Below, one piece after another: positions 4,607 to 11,804 of a DNA stretch of 64,000 nt. The notes under the pieces are model-generated. The model ran no database searches. It had not been told where the DNA came from and worked only from the letters and a program-made list of their open reading frames with translations. A program made the translations under genes and the position numbers. Every line of letters begins with the position of its first letter. The stretch's first letter is position 1. Source of the stretch: Cardiobacteriaceae bacterium (GTDB taxonomy: Bacteria; Pseudomonadota; Gammaproteobacteria; Cardiobacteriales; Cardiobacteriaceae); the NCBI GenBank assembly GCA_030529365.1, contig JAUMXB010000002.1, positions 1 through 64,000 on the forward strand, written 5' to 3'.

Positions 4607-4689
4607 TGGTAAAAACATATTATCGTAAGCGCTTCTTGTGGTGGTTTTTTATCGCAAGAAGCGCTTATTTGTGGTAAAAAACGACCATT
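4607..4689. repeat. E2: AAGCGCTT nested-palindrome element
   Basis: Cores at 4627-4634 and 4659-4666 (32 bp apart). Outer arms GGTAAAAA at both ends and TTTTTTATC in the middle. It lies just upstream of the Sel1 lipoprotein. Confidence 0.88.
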
Positions 4690-4931
4690 TTTAGTTGTTT
4701 TGCGAATCATAAAGGTCAACAGTCATCATCCGGTGGCGGTACAGGTTGGTAGCGAGGTATTAGGGGTTGCTGACAATTCGCGACTAAAGTTTACAGGTCT
4801 CAGAAAAAACATTCTAAATATCAATAACTTCGTCGCTGCGCGATTTTCTCTATCCCCCTCTCCCCAACCCCTCCCCCTCGAGGGGGAGGGGCTTTCATTC
4901 GCTACTAATCTGCGCTGCGGCGTGCGGCGGG
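4690..4931. other. Gene-free stretch with dispersed-repeat remnants
   Basis: No credible gene. The stretch AAAAAACATTCTAAAT (about 4805-4820) and the block GAGGGGCTTT resemble the interior of the possible MITE at 54.4 kb. A perfect 24-bp palindrome of C-rich/G-rich arms around CTCGAG spans 4868-4891, preceded by CCCTCTCCCCAACC; it lies about 40 bp downstream of the ntrX stop and could act as a terminator hairpin. Confidence 0.6.
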
Positions 4932-6293
4932 TCAATCGGGTTTTTGCGTGGGGTCGATGCCGAGGCTTCGCAGTTTGCGGTAGAGGTTGGTGCGGTCCAT
5001 GCCGACGCGCTGCGCAAGTTGCGCGACGTTGCCGTCGCAGTGGCGGAACTGTTCGAGGAGGTACTGGCGCTCGAAGACTTCGCGCGCTTCGCGCAGCGAC
5101 AGGTCTTTGGGGATGATTTGCGACCACAGGCCGTCGTCGCGGTGGTTGCTCGCGGGCGACAGGGCTTGGCTGGCTTCCTGGGCGTCGATTTCCGCGGCGT
5201 CGGCGCTGATCAAGAGGCGTTGCACGAGGTTTTTCAGTTCGCGGATGTTGCCGGGCCAGGTGTGCTGGCGCAGGGTGTTTTGCGCGGCGAGGGTGAAATG
5301 GCGGTAGGGGAGCTGTTCGTGGTCGGCAAAATACTGGCTGAAGTAGTCGAGGAGTTCGGGGACGTCTTCGCTGTGCTGGACGAGCGGCGGGATGTCGATG
5401 CGCGCGACGGTGAGCTGGTCGTAGAGTTCGCCGGGCAGGCGCTCTTTGAGGAGATCGAGCGGCAGGCGGGTGGCGGCGATGAGGCGGATGTCGGCCTGGC
5501 GCTGGCCTTCGGCGCTGGTGTAGTGGCCGTGTTCGAGGAGGGTGATGAGGAGTTGCGCGCTGTCTTCGCGCAGCGCGGTGATTTCGTCGAGGTAGAGGGT
5601 GCCGCCGTCGGCGCGGGCGATGAGGCCTTTGCGCTTGTCGTTGCCGATGAGGGCGGGGTAGATGTCGGCAGCGTCCATGCCGGTGAGGTTGGCGGCAACA
5701 AAGGGGCCATCGGCACGCGGGCCGTGCTGGTGGATGTATTTGCCGAGGTGCTGTTTGCCGGTGCCGGCGTTGCCGTGGATGAGGAGCGGGGCCTGCTGCT
5801 GGGCGAGGCGGTCGGCCTGTTCGCGCAGGCGCTGCATGGGCTGGCTTTTGCCGATGAGGTCGGCCACCGGGTTGATTTGCGCTTTCAGGGCGGCGTTTTG
5901 CGTTTGCAGGCTCCAGGTTTGTAGCGCCCGCTCGATGGTGAGCAGCAGCTTGGCGGTGGAGAGGGGTTTTTCGAGGAAGTCGTAGGCGCCGAGGCGGGTG
6001 GCTTCGACGGCGGTTTCGATGGTGCCGTGGCCGCTCATCATGACGACGGGGCCTTGCAGGCGCTTTTCCTGCTGCCATTCGCGCAGGAGGGTGATGCCGT
6101 CGGCGTCGGGCATCCAGATGTCGAGGAGGATGAGGTCGGGCTGCAGGGCCTGGAATTGCGCGCGCGCTTCGCTGGCGCTGGCGGCGGTGTGCACGGTGTA
6201 GTGTTCGTCTTCGAGGATGTCGCGCAGGGATTCGCGGATCATGTCTTCGTCGTCAACGATGAGGATGGTGGCGCCGGGGGACGGGGTGTTCAT
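4932..6293 (-). CDS. ntrX: NtrX-like response regulator with degenerate sigma-54 ATPase domain
   Basis: Response regulator of 453 aa paired with NtrY. The receiver domain (1-125) has DDE near residue 16, phospho-acceptor Asp58 in LLDIWMP and the Lys in FLEKP. The AAA+ domain keeps Walker A (GNAGTGKQ, 174-181) and Walker B (LYLDEI). However, the GAFTGA loop that contacts sigma-54 is gone: the region reads IYPALIGNDKRKGLIARADGG. The Arg-finger segment, usually LYYRL-like, reads ELYDQL. A Fis-type helix-turn-helix ends the protein (NVAQLAQRVGMDRTNLYRKL). It therefore probably regulates without activating sigma-54 polymerase. Its ATG overlaps the ntrY stop by 4 nt (ATGA), so the two are co-translated. 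Confidence 0.93.
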   Translation of the reverse strand: MNTPSPGATILIVDDEDMIRESLRDILEDEHYTVHTAASASEARAQFQALQPDLILLDIWMPDADGITLLREWQQEKRLQGPVVMMSGHGTIETAVEATRLGAYDFLEKPLSTAKLLLTIERALQTWSLQTQNAALKAQINPVADLIGKSQPMQRLREQADRLAQQQAPLLIHGNAGTGKQHLGKYIHQHGPRADGPFVAANLTGMDAADIYPALIGNDKRKGLIARADGGTLYLDEITALREDSAQLLITLLEHGHYTSAEGQRQADIRLIAATRLPLDLLKERLPGELYDQLTVARIDIPPLVQHSEDVPELLDYFSQYFADHEQLPYRHFTLAAQNTLRQHTWPGNIRELKNLVQRLLISADAAEIDAQEASQALSPASNHRDDGLWSQIIPKDLSLREAREVFERQYLLEQFRHCDGNVAQLAQRVGMDRTNLYRKLRSLGIDPTQKPD

Positions 6294-8458
6294 GGTGTGG
6301 CATCCGGGTAATGAATGGGAAGGGTGAAACGGATGCAGGCGCCGCCGAGGGTGTCGCTGTGCCCGGCGCTGATGCTGCCGCCGTGTTCGGTGATGATTTT
6401 CTTGACGATGGCGAGGCCGAGGCCGCTGCCTTTGTTTTTGGTGGTGATGTAGGGTTCGAAGGGGTCTTTGGAGAGGTCGGCAAAGCCGGGGCCGTTGTCT
6501 TCGAGGCTGATGCTGACGAGGCTGTCGCCTTCGCGCCGCGTGCGCCAGAGGAGCTGGAGGTCGCTTGCGCGCGCCTCGAAGGCGTTTTTCACGAGGTTGA
6601 TGAAGACTTGCTGCATTTGTACGGGGTCGGCGGCGACCGGCGGGAGGTTTTCCGCGAGATCATACTGGAAGCGCTGGTCAACATACAGTTCGCTGGCTTT
6701 GCGGATGAGCGCGTTGATGTCGGCAGGGATGGTGCGCATGGCGAGCGGACGGGCGAAGATGCCGAATTCGCTGACCAGGGTGCGCATGGTTTCCACCTGG
6801 TCGATGATGGTATTGGTGGCCTTGGCGAGGAGGTCGCGGTCGGCGCTGTCTTCGAGTTTGCCGTCGAGTTTGCGTTGCAGGCGCTCGCTTTGCAGGCGGA
6901 TGGGGGTGAGCGGGTTTTTGATTTCGTGGGCGAGGCGTTTGGCGACTTCTTCCCAGGCGGCGTTGCGCTGGTTGTGGAGAAATTCGGTGATGTCGTCGAA
7001 GACGATGACTTGCCCGCCGCGCACGCGCTTGCCCGCTTCGATGAGATGGCTGCCGTGGCACATCAGCACTTTGCGCGGGCCGAAGCGCGACAGGGTGACT
7101 TCCTGCTGCCAGTTGGCAAGATGGGCGGAGAGCGGTTCGGAGAGCGCTTGCATGAGTTCTTCGTAGCCGTCGCGGATGTCTTCGTCGTCGGCGGGCAGGG
7201 GCTGGTTGAGGCGGGCGGCGAGCGGGGTGTTGAGGATGGCGCTGGCGCTCAGGTTGAAGGTTTGCAGTTCGCGGCGGTGATTGAAGGTGATGACGCCGGC
7301 GGTGAGGTTGTCCATGATGGTTTCAAGATAGGCCTTCTGCTCGGTGAGGGCGCGCTGCGCGGTGCTGGCGTTCTGCTCGGCATCGGCAAGCGCTGCGGTC
7401 ATGGCGTTGAAATGGTCGCCGAGTTTGCCGAGGTCGTTCTTGGGCATGCCGCTGATGCGGGCGGCGAAGTTGCCGTCGGCTACCTTGCGCGTGGCATAGA
7501 TGAGCTTGCGCAGCGGGCGCGTCATGTGCTCGCCGAACAGCACGCTCAGCCACAGAATGATGAGGATGGTGAGCGTGAGGATGAGCGCCAGCACGACCAG
7601 AATGGTGGTGGTGATGTGCGGTTGCAGGTATTCGTAAAAGCGGTGTTCCCTGTAATTGACGCGCACGGAATCGGCGAGCGAATTGAAGGAATCGGGCATG
7701 GCGTAGCTGGCGTGGAGGTAGTAGCGGTCGCTGCCAAGCTTGTCGATGTCGGCGAAGACGTCGATGGTGTATTCGTGGTCGGTTTCGGAAAATTCGAAGA
7801 ATTCCTGTTGTTCGTTGATGCGCAGCAGGGTGTCGTAAGCGAGGCTTTCCACGGCAAGCACGTCGGTATCGCGGTGGGCAAAGGCGACGACGATGCCGTA
7901 GCGGTCGAAAACGGCGAGTTCGATGGCGCCGGTCTGGCGGCGCATGGCTTCGATGTTGTTGACCAGCTCGCCGTAGCTTTGCCGGCTGATGAGATCGCTG
8001 ACATAGCGGGTCTGGTCGAGCGCCTGACTGGCGCGCAGGCTTGCGGAGGTGCGGGTGAGTTCGAGGGCGTCTTCCATGGCGGTGCTGACCCGGCTGTTGA
8101 AGGTTTTGCCGAGGTCGTAGGATAAAAACTGCCAGGAAAAGAAAGAAATAATGACTATCGGAATCAGGCTTGCGCCAATCATGCTGAAGGCAAAGGAGAG
8201 CGACAGGCGTGCACCGCTGCTGTCCTGGCGGCGCAGGCGGCGCAGCAGGGCAAATATTTGCCAGAAGACAATGCCGGTAAGCGTGAGCATGCTGACGGCA
8301 GCGAGCACAAGCAGGGTGAGGTAATGGCTGTTCGGCGTTTCCGGGCGCGCGGCGGAAGCGCTTAGCCAGTGCAGGCAGAGCAGGGTGAGTCCGATACTCA
8401 ATATGCCGGACAGCAGGGAAAAGACGACGCGGTTTGCGCCTAGCGGACGAGCTGACAT
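6290..8458 (-). CDS. ntrY: NtrY-like membrane sensor histidine kinase
   Basis: Sensor kinase of 722 aa. Three or four membrane segments lie in the first 110 residues and another around 290-310. They enclose an extracytoplasmic sensor region and are followed by a HAMP domain (TRPLRKLIYATRKVADGNF) and a PAS domain (ETIMDNLTAGVITF). The dimerisation box is AHEIKNPLTPIRLQSERL with the phosphorylated His near residue 500. The ATPase domain has the N box NLVKNAFEA, the G1 box DNGPGF and the G2 box GSGLGLAIV. NtrY/NtrX pairs are linked to nitrogen, redox or envelope control in other proteobacteria. I chose ATG 8458 (MSARPLGANR); it overlaps the upstream DUF4390 gene by 19 nt. Confidence 0.94.
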   Translation of the reverse strand: MSARPLGANRVVFSLLSGILSIGLTLLCLHWLSASAARPETPNSHYLTLLVLAAVSMLTLTGIVFWQIFALLRRLRRQDSSGARLSLSFAFSMIGASLIPIVIISFFSWQFLSYDLGKTFNSRVSTAMEDALELTRTSASLRASQALDQTRYVSDLISRQSYGELVNNIEAMRRQTGAIELAVFDRYGIVVAFAHRDTDVLAVESLAYDTLLRINEQQEFFEFSETDHEYTIDVFADIDKLGSDRYYLHASYAMPDSFNSLADSVRVNYREHRFYEYLQPHITTTILVVLALILTLTILIILWLSVLFGEHMTRPLRKLIYATRKVADGNFAARISGMPKNDLGKLGDHFNAMTAALADAEQNASTAQRALTEQKAYLETIMDNLTAGVITFNHRRELQTFNLSASAILNTPLAARLNQPLPADDEDIRDGYEELMQALSEPLSAHLANWQQEVTLSRFGPRKVLMCHGSHLIEAGKRVRGGQVIVFDDITEFLHNQRNAAWEEVAKRLAHEIKNPLTPIRLQSERLQRKLDGKLEDSADRDLLAKATNTIIDQVETMRTLVSEFGIFARPLAMRTIPADINALIRKASELYVDQRFQYDLAENLPPVAADPVQMQQVFINLVKNAFEARASDLQLLWRTRREGDSLVSISLEDNGPGFADLSKDPFEPYITTKNKGSGLGLAIVKKIITEHGGSISAGHSDTLGGACIRFTLPIHYPDATP

Positions 8459-8973
8459 GGAAACCACTCGCTTGCAATATCCCATTGGGGATTGAACAGC
8501 GCATCAAGACGCAGGGAAACCGGCAGCTGCGCGGTATCCAGCCGCAGACGGACGCTGATGTCGTAGTCATAGACCGGGGAAAGCGTGACCGCTTCGGTGA
8601 CAAACACCGGTTGAACGTGGGCGGCATGGCTCAGGGCATCGCCGAGATAGGCGAAAGACAGCCGTTTGCGCGCGGCCGGTATGTCGAGAATGTATTGCTG
8701 GGAAATGGGGTTGTAACTCAGGCGCTGGCGGTGCTGGACGATGGTGCGCGCCGGCCACCAGCGCCGCTGCCGCCGGATGTCGGCTTCCTGCACCAGCTCA
8801 AGCGTCAGCCCGCTTTTGATCGCCGTCGCCGGCGCATCGGGGAGCTGGATTGTCGCTTTCATCTCCGCAGTCAGCATATCGCCCCGAATATGGCAGATTG
8901 CGCTATCGATACGAACCTGTGCCCACAGGACGTTACTCAGACTCAACACCCCTATGGCAAGCAGGCATTTCAT
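8440..8973 (-). CDS. DUF4390 secreted protein
   Basis: A protein of 177 aa beginning MKCLLAIGVLSLSNVLWAQ, a signal peptide cleaved after the Ala, then a beta-rich domain (PVYDYDISVRLRLDTAQL, LRLDALFNPQWDI) matching the DUF4390 family. It lies between rsmB and ntrY, a gene order also seen in other beta- and gammaproteobacteria. The placement suggests an envelope protein linked to NtrY sensing, though no function is proven. The frame extends far upstream, but the ATG at 8973 overlaps the rsmB stop as ATGA and starts a clean signal peptide, so it is the likely start. Confidence 0.85.
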   Translation of the reverse strand: MKCLLAIGVLSLSNVLWAQVRIDSAICHIRGDMLTAEMKATIQLPDAPATAIKSGLTLELVQEADIRRQRRWWPARTIVQHRQRLSYNPISQQYILDIPAARKRLSFAYLGDALSHAAHVQPVFVTEAVTLSPVYDYDISVRLRLDTAQLPVSLRLDALFNPQWDIASEWFPCQLVR

Positions 8974-10229
8974 GATTTGCCCAGCAAGGCATAGAAAAAG
9001 CCGTCGCCGTTGGCATCCGGCAGATGCAAATGCCCGAAACCGGTATTCGACGCGAGGGCAGGTGCAATGGGCAACAGGCGGGCGTCGGCATGTCTGGCGA
9101 GGAATTTTTTCACGACCTGCTGGTTTTCGGCGGGCAGTATCGAGCAGGTGGTGTAAAGGAGGCGGCCGCCGGGCTTCAGGATATGCCAAAGCGCTTGCAG
9201 CAGGCGGGCTTGCGTTTGCGGCAGGCGCAGCAAGTCGCGTTCTTCGCGCAGAAAGGCAATGTCGGGATGGCGGCGCAATACGCCGCTGCCGGAACAGGGG
9301 GCATCGAGCAGAATGGCGTCAAACGGCTTGCCATCATGCCAGGCGGCAATATCGGCCGCATCGGCATGGCGGATGTGCGCTTGCTGGCCGAGGCGGGCGA
9401 GATTGTCGCGTACGCGGGCGAGGCGCGCGTCATCATGATCGAGGGCGACGACTTCGGCCTGCGGCGCCAGTTCGAGCAGGTGGCCGGTTTTGCCGCCAGG
9501 TGCGGCGCAGGCATCGAGAAGGCGTTCGCCGTTTTGCGGCGCAAGAAGCAGGGCGGCCTGCTGCGCGGCAGCATCCTGCACGGAAACCTGCCCTTCGGCA
9601 AAGCCGGGGATCTGCTGCACATTTAAAGTCTTGTGCAGGGTAACGGCCTGCGGTGCCAGCGGATTGGCGCTGGCGGATGCCATGCCGGCTATCCAGCTGT
9701 CGCGGTCAAGCGTGGGGTTGAGCCGCAGCGTCAGGGGCGGCGGATGGCTGGCAGCATGGGCAAGCGCTTCCGTGGCTTGCGGATGGGCTTGCGCCAGCCA
9801 GTCGGGCAGGTTGCGGACGAGGCTGGCATCAAGCGCTTGTTGCCAGTGCGCACGCTCACGCTGTGCACGGCGCAGCACGGCATTGATCAGGCCCTTGGTG
9901 CGCGCGCTGCCGTTCTTTTCGGCGAGCGCCACCGTTTCATGGATGACGCCGTGGTCACCAAGATTCATGCGCAGCAATTGCCACAGGCCGAGATTGAGGA
10001 GAATGGCGGGGACGCGGGCATTGGCGCGCAAGGGAGCGCTGAGCAATTGGTCGCGGATATGGCTGAGCGCGCGGTAATTGCGCAGGGTGTCATAGACCAG
10101 CGTGTGATAGAGCGCGCGGTCGGCTTCGTGGACGCGCATTTTCGTGGCATCGAAAATTTGGCTCAGGGAGCGCTTGTCGCCGATGACGCTTTGGATGGTG
10201 TTCAGGGCGGCTTGGCGGGCATTGATCAT
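8970..10229 (-). CDS. rsmB: 16S rRNA (cytosine-967-C5)-methyltransferase RsmB
   Basis: Cytosolic rRNA methyltransferase of 419 aa. The N-terminal NusB-like RNA-binding domain covers about residues 1-130 and a Rossmann methyltransferase domain follows. The SAM motif DACAAPGGKT, motif IV LLDAPCSGSG with the catalytic proline-cysteine, and motif VI YTTCSI with the second cysteine are intact. The protein transfers a methyl group from SAM to C5 of C967 in 16S rRNA. It is the third gene of def-fmt-rsmB; its ATG at 10229 overlaps the fmt stop by 4 nt, indicating translational coupling. Confidence 0.96.
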   Translation of the reverse strand: MINARQAALNTIQSVIGDKRSLSQIFDATKMRVHEADRALYHTLVYDTLRNYRALSHIRDQLLSAPLRANARVPAILLNLGLWQLLRMNLGDHGVIHETVALAEKNGSARTKGLINAVLRRAQRERAHWQQALDASLVRNLPDWLAQAHPQATEALAHAASHPPPLTLRLNPTLDRDSWIAGMASASANPLAPQAVTLHKTLNVQQIPGFAEGQVSVQDAAAQQAALLLAPQNGERLLDACAAPGGKTGHLLELAPQAEVVALDHDDARLARVRDNLARLGQQAHIRHADAADIAAWHDGKPFDAILLDAPCSGSGVLRRHPDIAFLREERDLLRLPQTQARLLQALWHILKPGGRLLYTTCSILPAENQQVVKKFLARHADARLLPIAPALASNTGFGHLHLPDANGDGFFYALLGKS

Positions 10230-11161
10230 GTGAAGCGCTTTCCGCTGAGGTTGCGGCTGTGACGCAGCGCCGCTGCATCAATGACGGGTTTGCCGGGGAG
10301 TTGCAGGCGGGTGATGCGCAGAATGGCGCCATCGAGTGCCACATCCAGTCCGGCATCGCTGTGCGCGAGAATGCTGCCGGCAGGCTGGTCGCTTTGCCCG
10401 GCAAGCAGCGTGGCGCGATGGATGCGCAGGGTTTCGTCGTCAAGAGAGGTCTGTGCGACAGGGAAGGGCGAAAAGGCGCGAATGCGGCGCACGATGGTTT
10501 GCAGATCGGCCTGCCAGTCGATGGCGGCTTCTTCTTTGCGCAATTTGTGGGCATAGGTGGCCTGGGCATCATCCTGCGGCGCAGGGCTGCCATGGCCGGC
10601 AAGCACGTCAGGCAGGGCGGCGAGCAGGGTTTGTGCGCCAAGCGGCATCAGTTGGTCGTGCAGTTCGCCGGCAGTGATGGCGTCGTCAATGGGAAGGGTA
10701 GCGCTCTGCCACACCGGGCCGGTATCCAGTCCGGCTTCCATTTGCATGATGCAGATGCCGGTTTGCGGATCACCGGCTTCAATGGCGCGCTGGATGGGCG
10801 CGGCACCGCGCCAGCGTGGCAGCAGCGATGCGTGGATATTGAGGCAGCCGTGGCGCGGCAAATCGAGAAACCATTGCGGCAACAAAAGACCATAGGCGGC
10901 GACAATGACAAGATCCGGCCGTGGCAGATGGGCAAAGGGCGGATGGCTGGCATCAAGTTTTTCTGGCTGCGCCACAGGGATATGGTGGGCAAGGGCCACG
11001 TTCTTGACAGGAGAAGCGCTTAATTTGCGCCCGCGTCCGGCAGGACGGTCCGGCTGGGTGAGGACGGCATCAATCTGGTAGCGCCCGTCGTCGATCAGGG
11101 CTTGCAGGCTGTAAGCGGCAAATTCGGGGGTGCCGGCGAACCACAGGCGAGGGCGGGTCAT
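10226..11161 (-). CDS. fmt: Methionyl-tRNA formyltransferase
   Basis: Transfers the formyl group of 10-formyl-tetrahydrofolate to initiator Met-tRNA. The protein has 311 aa (E. coli 315). The folate-binding catalytic core shows [16 protein letters not shown] with the conserved Asn and His, and ends with GLDTGPV. A C-terminal OB-like tRNA-binding domain follows. FAGTPEFA opens the Rossmann fold. Start and stop overlap def and rsmB by 4 nt each, so def, fmt and rsmB form one translationally coupled unit. Confidence 0.97.
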
Positions 11162-11700
11162 GCGTTTTTCAGGCTCTTGGCCAGTTTCTTTTCCAAACGC
11201 TCGCGTTTCAGGCGCGAGAGATGATCGATGAAGAGCACGCCGTTCAGGTGATCGATTTCGTGCTGGATGCAGACGCCCAGCAGACCGCTGGCATCGTCTT
11301 CGATCACGGCGCCGCCCAAATCCTGGTAGCGATAATGAATGCGCGCCGGGCGCTCGACATCGGCATACTGACCGGGCAGCGACAGGCAGCCTTCCTGGTA
11401 AACGGATTTTTCCGCACTGCCGGAGACGACTTCCGGGTTGATGAGCACCAGTTTGGTGGACGAGGCGATCTCGTCGGTTTCCACGCCGTTGTCGTCTATG
11501 TGGTAAGTCGGCACATCCAGGACCACGATGCGCTCGTGAATATCCACCTGGGTGGCGGCGAGGCCAATGCCGCGCGCTTCGTACATGGTGGCAAACATGC
11601 GCTCGGCAATGTCGGCGAGGCGGTTTGAAAAGTCGGTAACAGGTTTGGCTGTCAGACGCAAGTGGGGGTGGGGATGAATCAGAATCGGGTAATTTTCCAT
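11158..11700 (-). CDS. def: Peptide deformylase
   Basis: Removes the N-formyl group from nascent proteins. All three active-site motifs are present in 180 aa: GIGLAATQ (motif 1), EGCLSLPG with the metal-binding Cys (motif 2) and QHEIDHLNG with the two metal-binding His and catalytic Glu (motif 3). The 169-residue E. coli enzyme is slightly shorter; the extra residues are mainly an insert [13 protein letters not shown] before motif 2. It is the first gene of def-fmt-rsmB-DUF4390-ntrY-ntrX, and a promoter with TATAAT lies about 75 bp upstream of the start. Confidence 0.97.
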
Positions 11701-11774: not shown

Positions 11775-11804
11775 ATTATACGGAAACATCCCTATGGGTT
11801 AAAC
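11775..11804 (-). promoter_or_regulatory. Candidate def promoter
   Basis: On the minus strand TATAAT (11775-11780) is a perfect -10 box. A weak -35 (TTTAAC) lies 17 nt upstream. It sits in the 140-bp divergent gap between def and the LysM lipoprotein gene. Confidence 0.45.

Follow-up and report, generated by a model that had tools for sequence, protein, structure and literature searches.

Gene organization of the ntrX locus

Within the window (the whole 64,000-nucleotide stretch of Cardiobacteriaceae DNA that we analysed), ntrX occupies positions 4932–6293 of the minus strand, running from an ATG at 6293 to a stop at 4932 and encoding a response regulator of 453 amino acids. Pfam finds in the product, in this order, a receiver, Sigma54_activat, an AAA lid and HTH_8, which is the REC, AAA+ and Fis-type HTH layout of the NtrX family: the receiver spans residues 9–124 (5922–6269), the AAA+ core residues 146–304, the lid residues 305–385, and the HTH about residues 400–447 (4953–5096; these and all further features of the gene lie on the minus strand). 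The Sigma54_activat score is 90.5 bits, compared with 238.4 bits for the organism's own PilR-like protein in a Pfam search of the genome. The top NCBIfam model is NtrX, at 369.7 bits; this score misses the equivalog cut-off of NF051870 (600 bits), which weakens only the name 'equivalog', since orthology is derived from synteny and the tree (see below). AlphaFold models the protein with confidence (mean pLDDT 87.7); the structures that best match the model are those of Brucella NtrX, ATP- and ADP-bound crystals included.

The gene directly follows that of an NtrY-type kinase, another feature of the NtrX family. This ntrY/plrS-type sensor kinase gene (6290–8485, minus strand; HAMP, HisKA with the motif AHEIKNP, and HATPase, by Pfam) overlaps ntrX by 4 bases. 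Upstream of it are a plrP-type gene for a DUF4390 protein (8440–8973, minus strand), whose start we take from the sequence to be at MKCLLAIG, a signal-like N-terminus, and, with a 4-base overlap, rsmB (8970–10229, minus strand), an rRNA methyltransferase gene named from sequence and conserved order rather than by family search. The operon begins with def and fmt (10226–11700, minus strand; a 4-base overlap per pair), likewise named from sequence and conserved order. Thus, def-fmt-rsmB-plrP-ntrY-ntrX is a single minus-strand run of overlapping genes in which ntrX comes last; the placement of rsmB and a DUF4390 gene upstream of kinase and regulator is a PlrSR-type feature, and we found the same gene order in many gamma- and betaproteobacterial loci. 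Upstream of def there is a weak sigma-70-like promoter match, TTAACC-16-TATAAT (11775–11802, minus strand), although such sites are no commoner than chance. At the other end, two strong inverted repeats (4628–4667 and 4868–4891) separate ntrX from a Sel1-repeat gene; the first, read from the sequence as GCGCTTCTTG...CAAGAAGCGC, is probably a terminator region, and the arms of the second are C-rich and G-rich (CCCCTCCCCCTCGAGGGGGAGGGG).

NtrX lacks GAFTGA and both arginine fingers

Alignment shows that the NtrX receiver retains D14, D58, S87 and K109, the two aspartates and the lysine being invariant across all 211 aligned sequences. The AAA+ domain keeps the Walker A lysine K180 (HGNAGTGKQ, residues 173–181; 5751–5777), Walker B D236 and E237 (YLDEI, residues 234–238; 5580–5594), the asparagine-switch residue N202 and sensor II R351. 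A first, sequence-only reading of this DNA, which gave no strand for the gene, had described the receiver, Walker A, Walker B and Fis-type HTH as intact, a description borne out by the alignment and by Pfam. The sensor I residue, R276, is atypical, but we gave this no weight because the organism's own PilR is also atypical at sensor I.

GAFTGA is the loop by which activators of this type contact sigma-54. It is missing here: the loop 1 region (residues 204–226; 5616–5684) contains the segment ANLTGMDAADIYPALIGNDKRKGLIARADGGTLYLDEI, which is some 10 residues shorter than its counterpart in the PilR-like protein of the same genome. Furthermore, the former arginine-finger segment (residues 286–294; 5412–5438) reads LPGELYDQL where PilR has FREDLFYRL, so that the first finger (R1) is replaced by P287 and the second (R2) by Q293. 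Both the replacement of the loop and the presence of LPGELYDQL in place of the usual FREDLYYRL had been noted in the sequence-only reading, and our alignment with PilR confirms them. Hence, among the features of a sigma-54 activator, Walker A and Walker B are present while GAFTGA and the arginine fingers are absent. The loop and LPGELYDQL recur unchanged in another genome of the genus (L003/L032; 95% identity), and the remaining members of the Cardiobacteriaceae are also without GAFTGA; the motif loss is therefore not a sequencing slip.

Distribution of the losses among NtrX relatives

Our comparison of NtrX covered the Cardiobacteriaceae, their order and a sample from across the class, together with 80 named loci; the closest named relative is a Cardiobacteriaceae genome (95% identical), and Dichelobacter nodosus is 65% identical. 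GAFTGA was found in no gamma- or betaproteobacterial NtrX that we sampled. Its wide loss in the clade, which had been suggested as a check, is thus observed throughout the sampled gamma/beta NtrX, and any notion that the loss is peculiar to this protein falls away: it is a family property that is already published for Brucella and Caulobacter NtrX, and the window NtrX is unexceptional within a known, if unusual, family. A relaxed GAFTGA pattern was matched by 24 homologues, nearly all of them deltaproteobacterial records (the exceptions are one from Magnetococcales, with GAFPGA, and one Eisenbacteria record), and most of these also follow an ntrY. All 24 keep the Walker lysine, aspartate and glutamate, both arginine fingers and sensor II; as the group is defined by the motif, independent information comes only from the completeness of their other catalytic residues. 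Three sequences from alphaproteobacteria are without GAFTGA but keep both arginine fingers.

The other catalytic residues have been lost to differing extents. All 11 Cardiobacteriaceae have lost the second finger, as have 14 of the 15 other Cardiobacteriales, 82 of the 105 sequences in the class sample and 8 of the 9 betaproteobacteria; the corresponding figures for loss of both fingers are 9/11, 14/15, 14/105 and 8/9. The Walker A lysine is missing from 6 of the 15 other Cardiobacteriales and from all nine betaproteobacteria, and Walker A and B are intact in the window NtrX and in 9/11 members of its family. We also observed that the NtrX of a Geobacter record (L111) is without GAFTGA and both arginine fingers; it groups with deltaproteobacteria on the tree, and its motif loss is apparently independent of the gamma/beta clade. 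In one Cardiobacteriaceae genome (G007, contig C7, 46245–47452), a break near residue 261 leaves ntrX in two frames, through either a frameshift or an assembly error.

When the AAA+ core columns are left out of the tree, gamma- and betaproteobacterial NtrX form one clade with a support of 98 by a quick method. GAFTGA needs 3 changes on this tree, the first finger 12, the second finger 10 and the loss of both 14; these are unrooted counts, in which loss and gain are not told apart. The simplest reading is that the loop was lost early and the fingers repeatedly later; we prefer repeated loss of the fingers to gain because many regains of arginine fingers are implausible. The gene is under purifying selection, with an overall dN/dS of 0.089 when the two genus members are compared; by domain, the ratio is lowest in the HTH (0.042) and receiver (0.05), higher in the AAA+ core (0.085) and highest in the lid (0.124). 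Outside the Cardiobacteriaceae, identity falls to about 30% in the AAA+ core and is about 60% in the receiver. The AAA+ core is under weaker constraint than the receiver and HTH, yet it is clearly kept.

rpoN and sigma-54

The sequence-only reading had looked to an absence of rpoN for support, but the gene is present and complete in the window genome, with a readable N-terminal activator-interaction region and RpoN box. We found rpoN in 229/276 genomes of the class and, when the two lists were compared by hand, in 174 of the 178 that have an NtrX match (the four without are G069, G109, G194 and G304); we therefore reject rpoN loss as the cause of GAFTGA loss. Apart from NtrX, the genome encodes a single enhancer-binding protein, the PilR-like one, whose gene lies beside that of a kinase and which has GSFTGA and both fingers. 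Its presence accounts for the retention of rpoN here, and rpoN and this partner serve as an internal control. The exact -24/-12 sigma-54 consensus has two matches in the genome, one beside a peptide-synthetase-like ORF and the other after a transporter-ATPase-like ORF. A peptide-synthetase-like ORF on contig C2 of this genome (L216, 71–1975) has, by eye, adenylation, carrier and thioesterase-like parts.

With GAFTGA absent, both arginine fingers gone and the whole sampled gamma/beta clade without GAFTGA, the earlier claim of sigma-54 independence is well supported, as is the conclusion, from sequence, that the window NtrX is not a sigma-54 activator. The label 'sigma-54-dependent regulator NtrX' is a misnomer in gamma- and betaproteobacterial genomes.

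Discussion

We propose, with a probability of roughly 0.8, that NtrX is a phosphorylation-switched dimeric regulator that represses or activates sigma-70 promoters and in which the AAA+ domain is a non-hydrolysing scaffold. We infer a process in which NtrY would phosphorylate D58, and the phosphorylated dimer would bind DNA through its C-terminal Fis-type HTH, raising or lowering transcription from ordinary sigma-70 promoters. Without the GAFTGA loop, sigma-54 could not be engaged; without both arginine fingers, neighbouring subunits would be unable to hydrolyse each other's ATP. The AAA+ fold would be kept as a structural, and probably nucleotide-binding, link between receiver and HTH. The earlier suggestion of a repressor or sigma-70 regulator fits what is described among relatives for the NtrX of Brucella and Rhodobacter sphaeroides and for the NtrC of R. 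capsulatus and Caulobacter; the window NtrX may act with either sign. As to targets, the GCAn9TGC box proposed as the NtrX box of the R. sphaeroides regulon was found in none of 11 regions upstream of mraZ from 10 genomes (about 0.4 are expected by shuffling; mraZ was located by the ORF finder in 11 of the 30 loci, and the window's own genome supplied two of these). A regulon that operates via this box upstream of mraZ is thus not seen in these 11 regions, which counts against our proposal; the absence of the box bears on the regulon, not on NtrX family membership.

The competing reading that deserves most thought, albeit an unlikely one, is that ATP binding or slow hydrolysis at Walker A/B is still needed, such that NtrX would be an ATP-dependent sigma-70 regulator like the NtrC of R. 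capsulatus or Caulobacter. The window NtrX and most other Cardiobacteriaceae members have kept Walker A and B, a degree of conservation beyond the needs of a dead nucleotide site; a part for ATP binding or slow hydrolysis is therefore still conceivable. Moreover, Brucella NtrX in ATP- and ADP-bound form is among the best fold matches, and Caulobacter NtrC appears to need its ATP-hydrolysis residues despite having no GAFTGA (PMC10274813). Against these points must be set the loss of both arginine fingers in 9/11 family members, and of the Walker A lysine in 6/15 other Cardiobacteriales whose architecture is the same.

We regard it as very improbable that NtrX is still a sigma-54 activator that contacts sigma-54 by a different loop: the co-occurrence of rpoN and NtrX, here and in 174/178 class genomes, might be read that way, but the shortened loop and the loss of both arginine fingers speak against it, and the PilR-like activator with GSFTGA explains why rpoN is retained. 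We find it equally hard to credit that the gene is decaying or misassembled. The concentration of many changes within one domain, and the relative with ntrX in two frames (G007), would be in keeping with this, and yet the frame is open, overall dN/dS is 0.089, receiver and HTH are conserved and an independent genome has the identical motif state; the low dN/dS and the second genus genome lead us to reject a pseudogene or artefact.

Returning to NtrX as a sigma-70 regulator with a non-hydrolysing scaffold, we lean, a little beyond even odds, towards a wider interpretation: gamma- and betaproteobacterial NtrX, once uncoupled from sigma-54, would have lost AAA+ catalytic residues repeatedly with the fold kept. 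NtrX would then be a family made up largely of pseudo-ATPases, with the one-time motor turned into a fixed connector or a sensor of nucleotides, and its betaproteobacterial members would keep a reduced AAA+ domain. This rests on the count of at least 10 changes per arginine finger on the tree, on the loss of the Walker A lysine in some other Cardiobacteriales and in betaproteobacteria, and on purifying selection on the fold where measured. Such graded natural losses (loop, then fingers, then Walker A) are material on the role of an AAA+ domain after ATP hydrolysis stops.

Comparison with known systems

In work by Fernandez from 2017 (cited in PMC7264223), Brucella NtrX reportedly is without GAFTGA, represses its own promoter and, although it binds ATP, shows no ATPase activity. 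Among solved structures, the Brucella abortus protein (PDB: 5m7n, 5m7o, 5m7p) is the top match to the window NtrX by both sequence and fold; it shares the REC-AAA+-Fis HTH architecture, the ntrY partner and the absence of GAFTGA (its sequence there is ELFGTEMDGGERKVGALEEA). On the other hand, Brucella NtrX keeps both fingers (FREDLFHRL), whereas the window NtrX has lost both and has a shorter loop.

The Bordetella plrSR locus also has the arrangement rsmB, DUF4390 gene, kinase, regulator, with PlrP, the product of the DUF4390 gene, as a third component in signalling (PMC13001219). Our locus resembles it in the order rsmB-DUF4390 (plrP)-kinase-regulator, the overlapping genes and the HEIKN kinase motif (PMC13001219). 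It differs in that the gene after ntrX encodes a Sel1-repeat protein here and TrkA there, and the sampled betaproteobacterial NtrX are about 30 residues shorter than the window NtrX and are without the Walker A lysine. Betaproteobacterial NtrX have been said to be without an AAA+ domain (PMC13001219, citing Bonato 2016). Nevertheless, the three that we scanned (L100, L101 and L107) match Pfam PF14532 over 137–138 of its 138 positions, with E-values of about 1e-38 or better, as well as an AAA+ lid, and in all three the Walker A lysine is absent; correcting the literature, their AAA+ domain is, judged by its residues, reduced and probably catalytically dead rather than absent.

Caulobacter NtrX is also without GAFTGA, and NtrC proteins that are without GAFTGA act at sigma-70 promoters (PMC10274813), as do GAFTGA-deleted relatives such as TyrR, DhaR and HupR, which are sigma-70 dependent (PMC3162934). 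The NtrC proteins of R. capsulatus and Caulobacter share with the window NtrX the receiver-AAA+-HTH architecture, a loop 1 deletion and sigma-70 promoters; they differ in being NtrC rather than NtrX, with separate losses and an ATP dependence that is not the same in the two (PMC10274813). Within the NtrX family itself, Sinorhizobium NtrX binds promoters when phosphorylated, and NtrX in this genus acts as activator as well as repressor (PMC9223101); R. sphaeroides NtrX directly activates some of its targets and perhaps represses others (PMC7240162).
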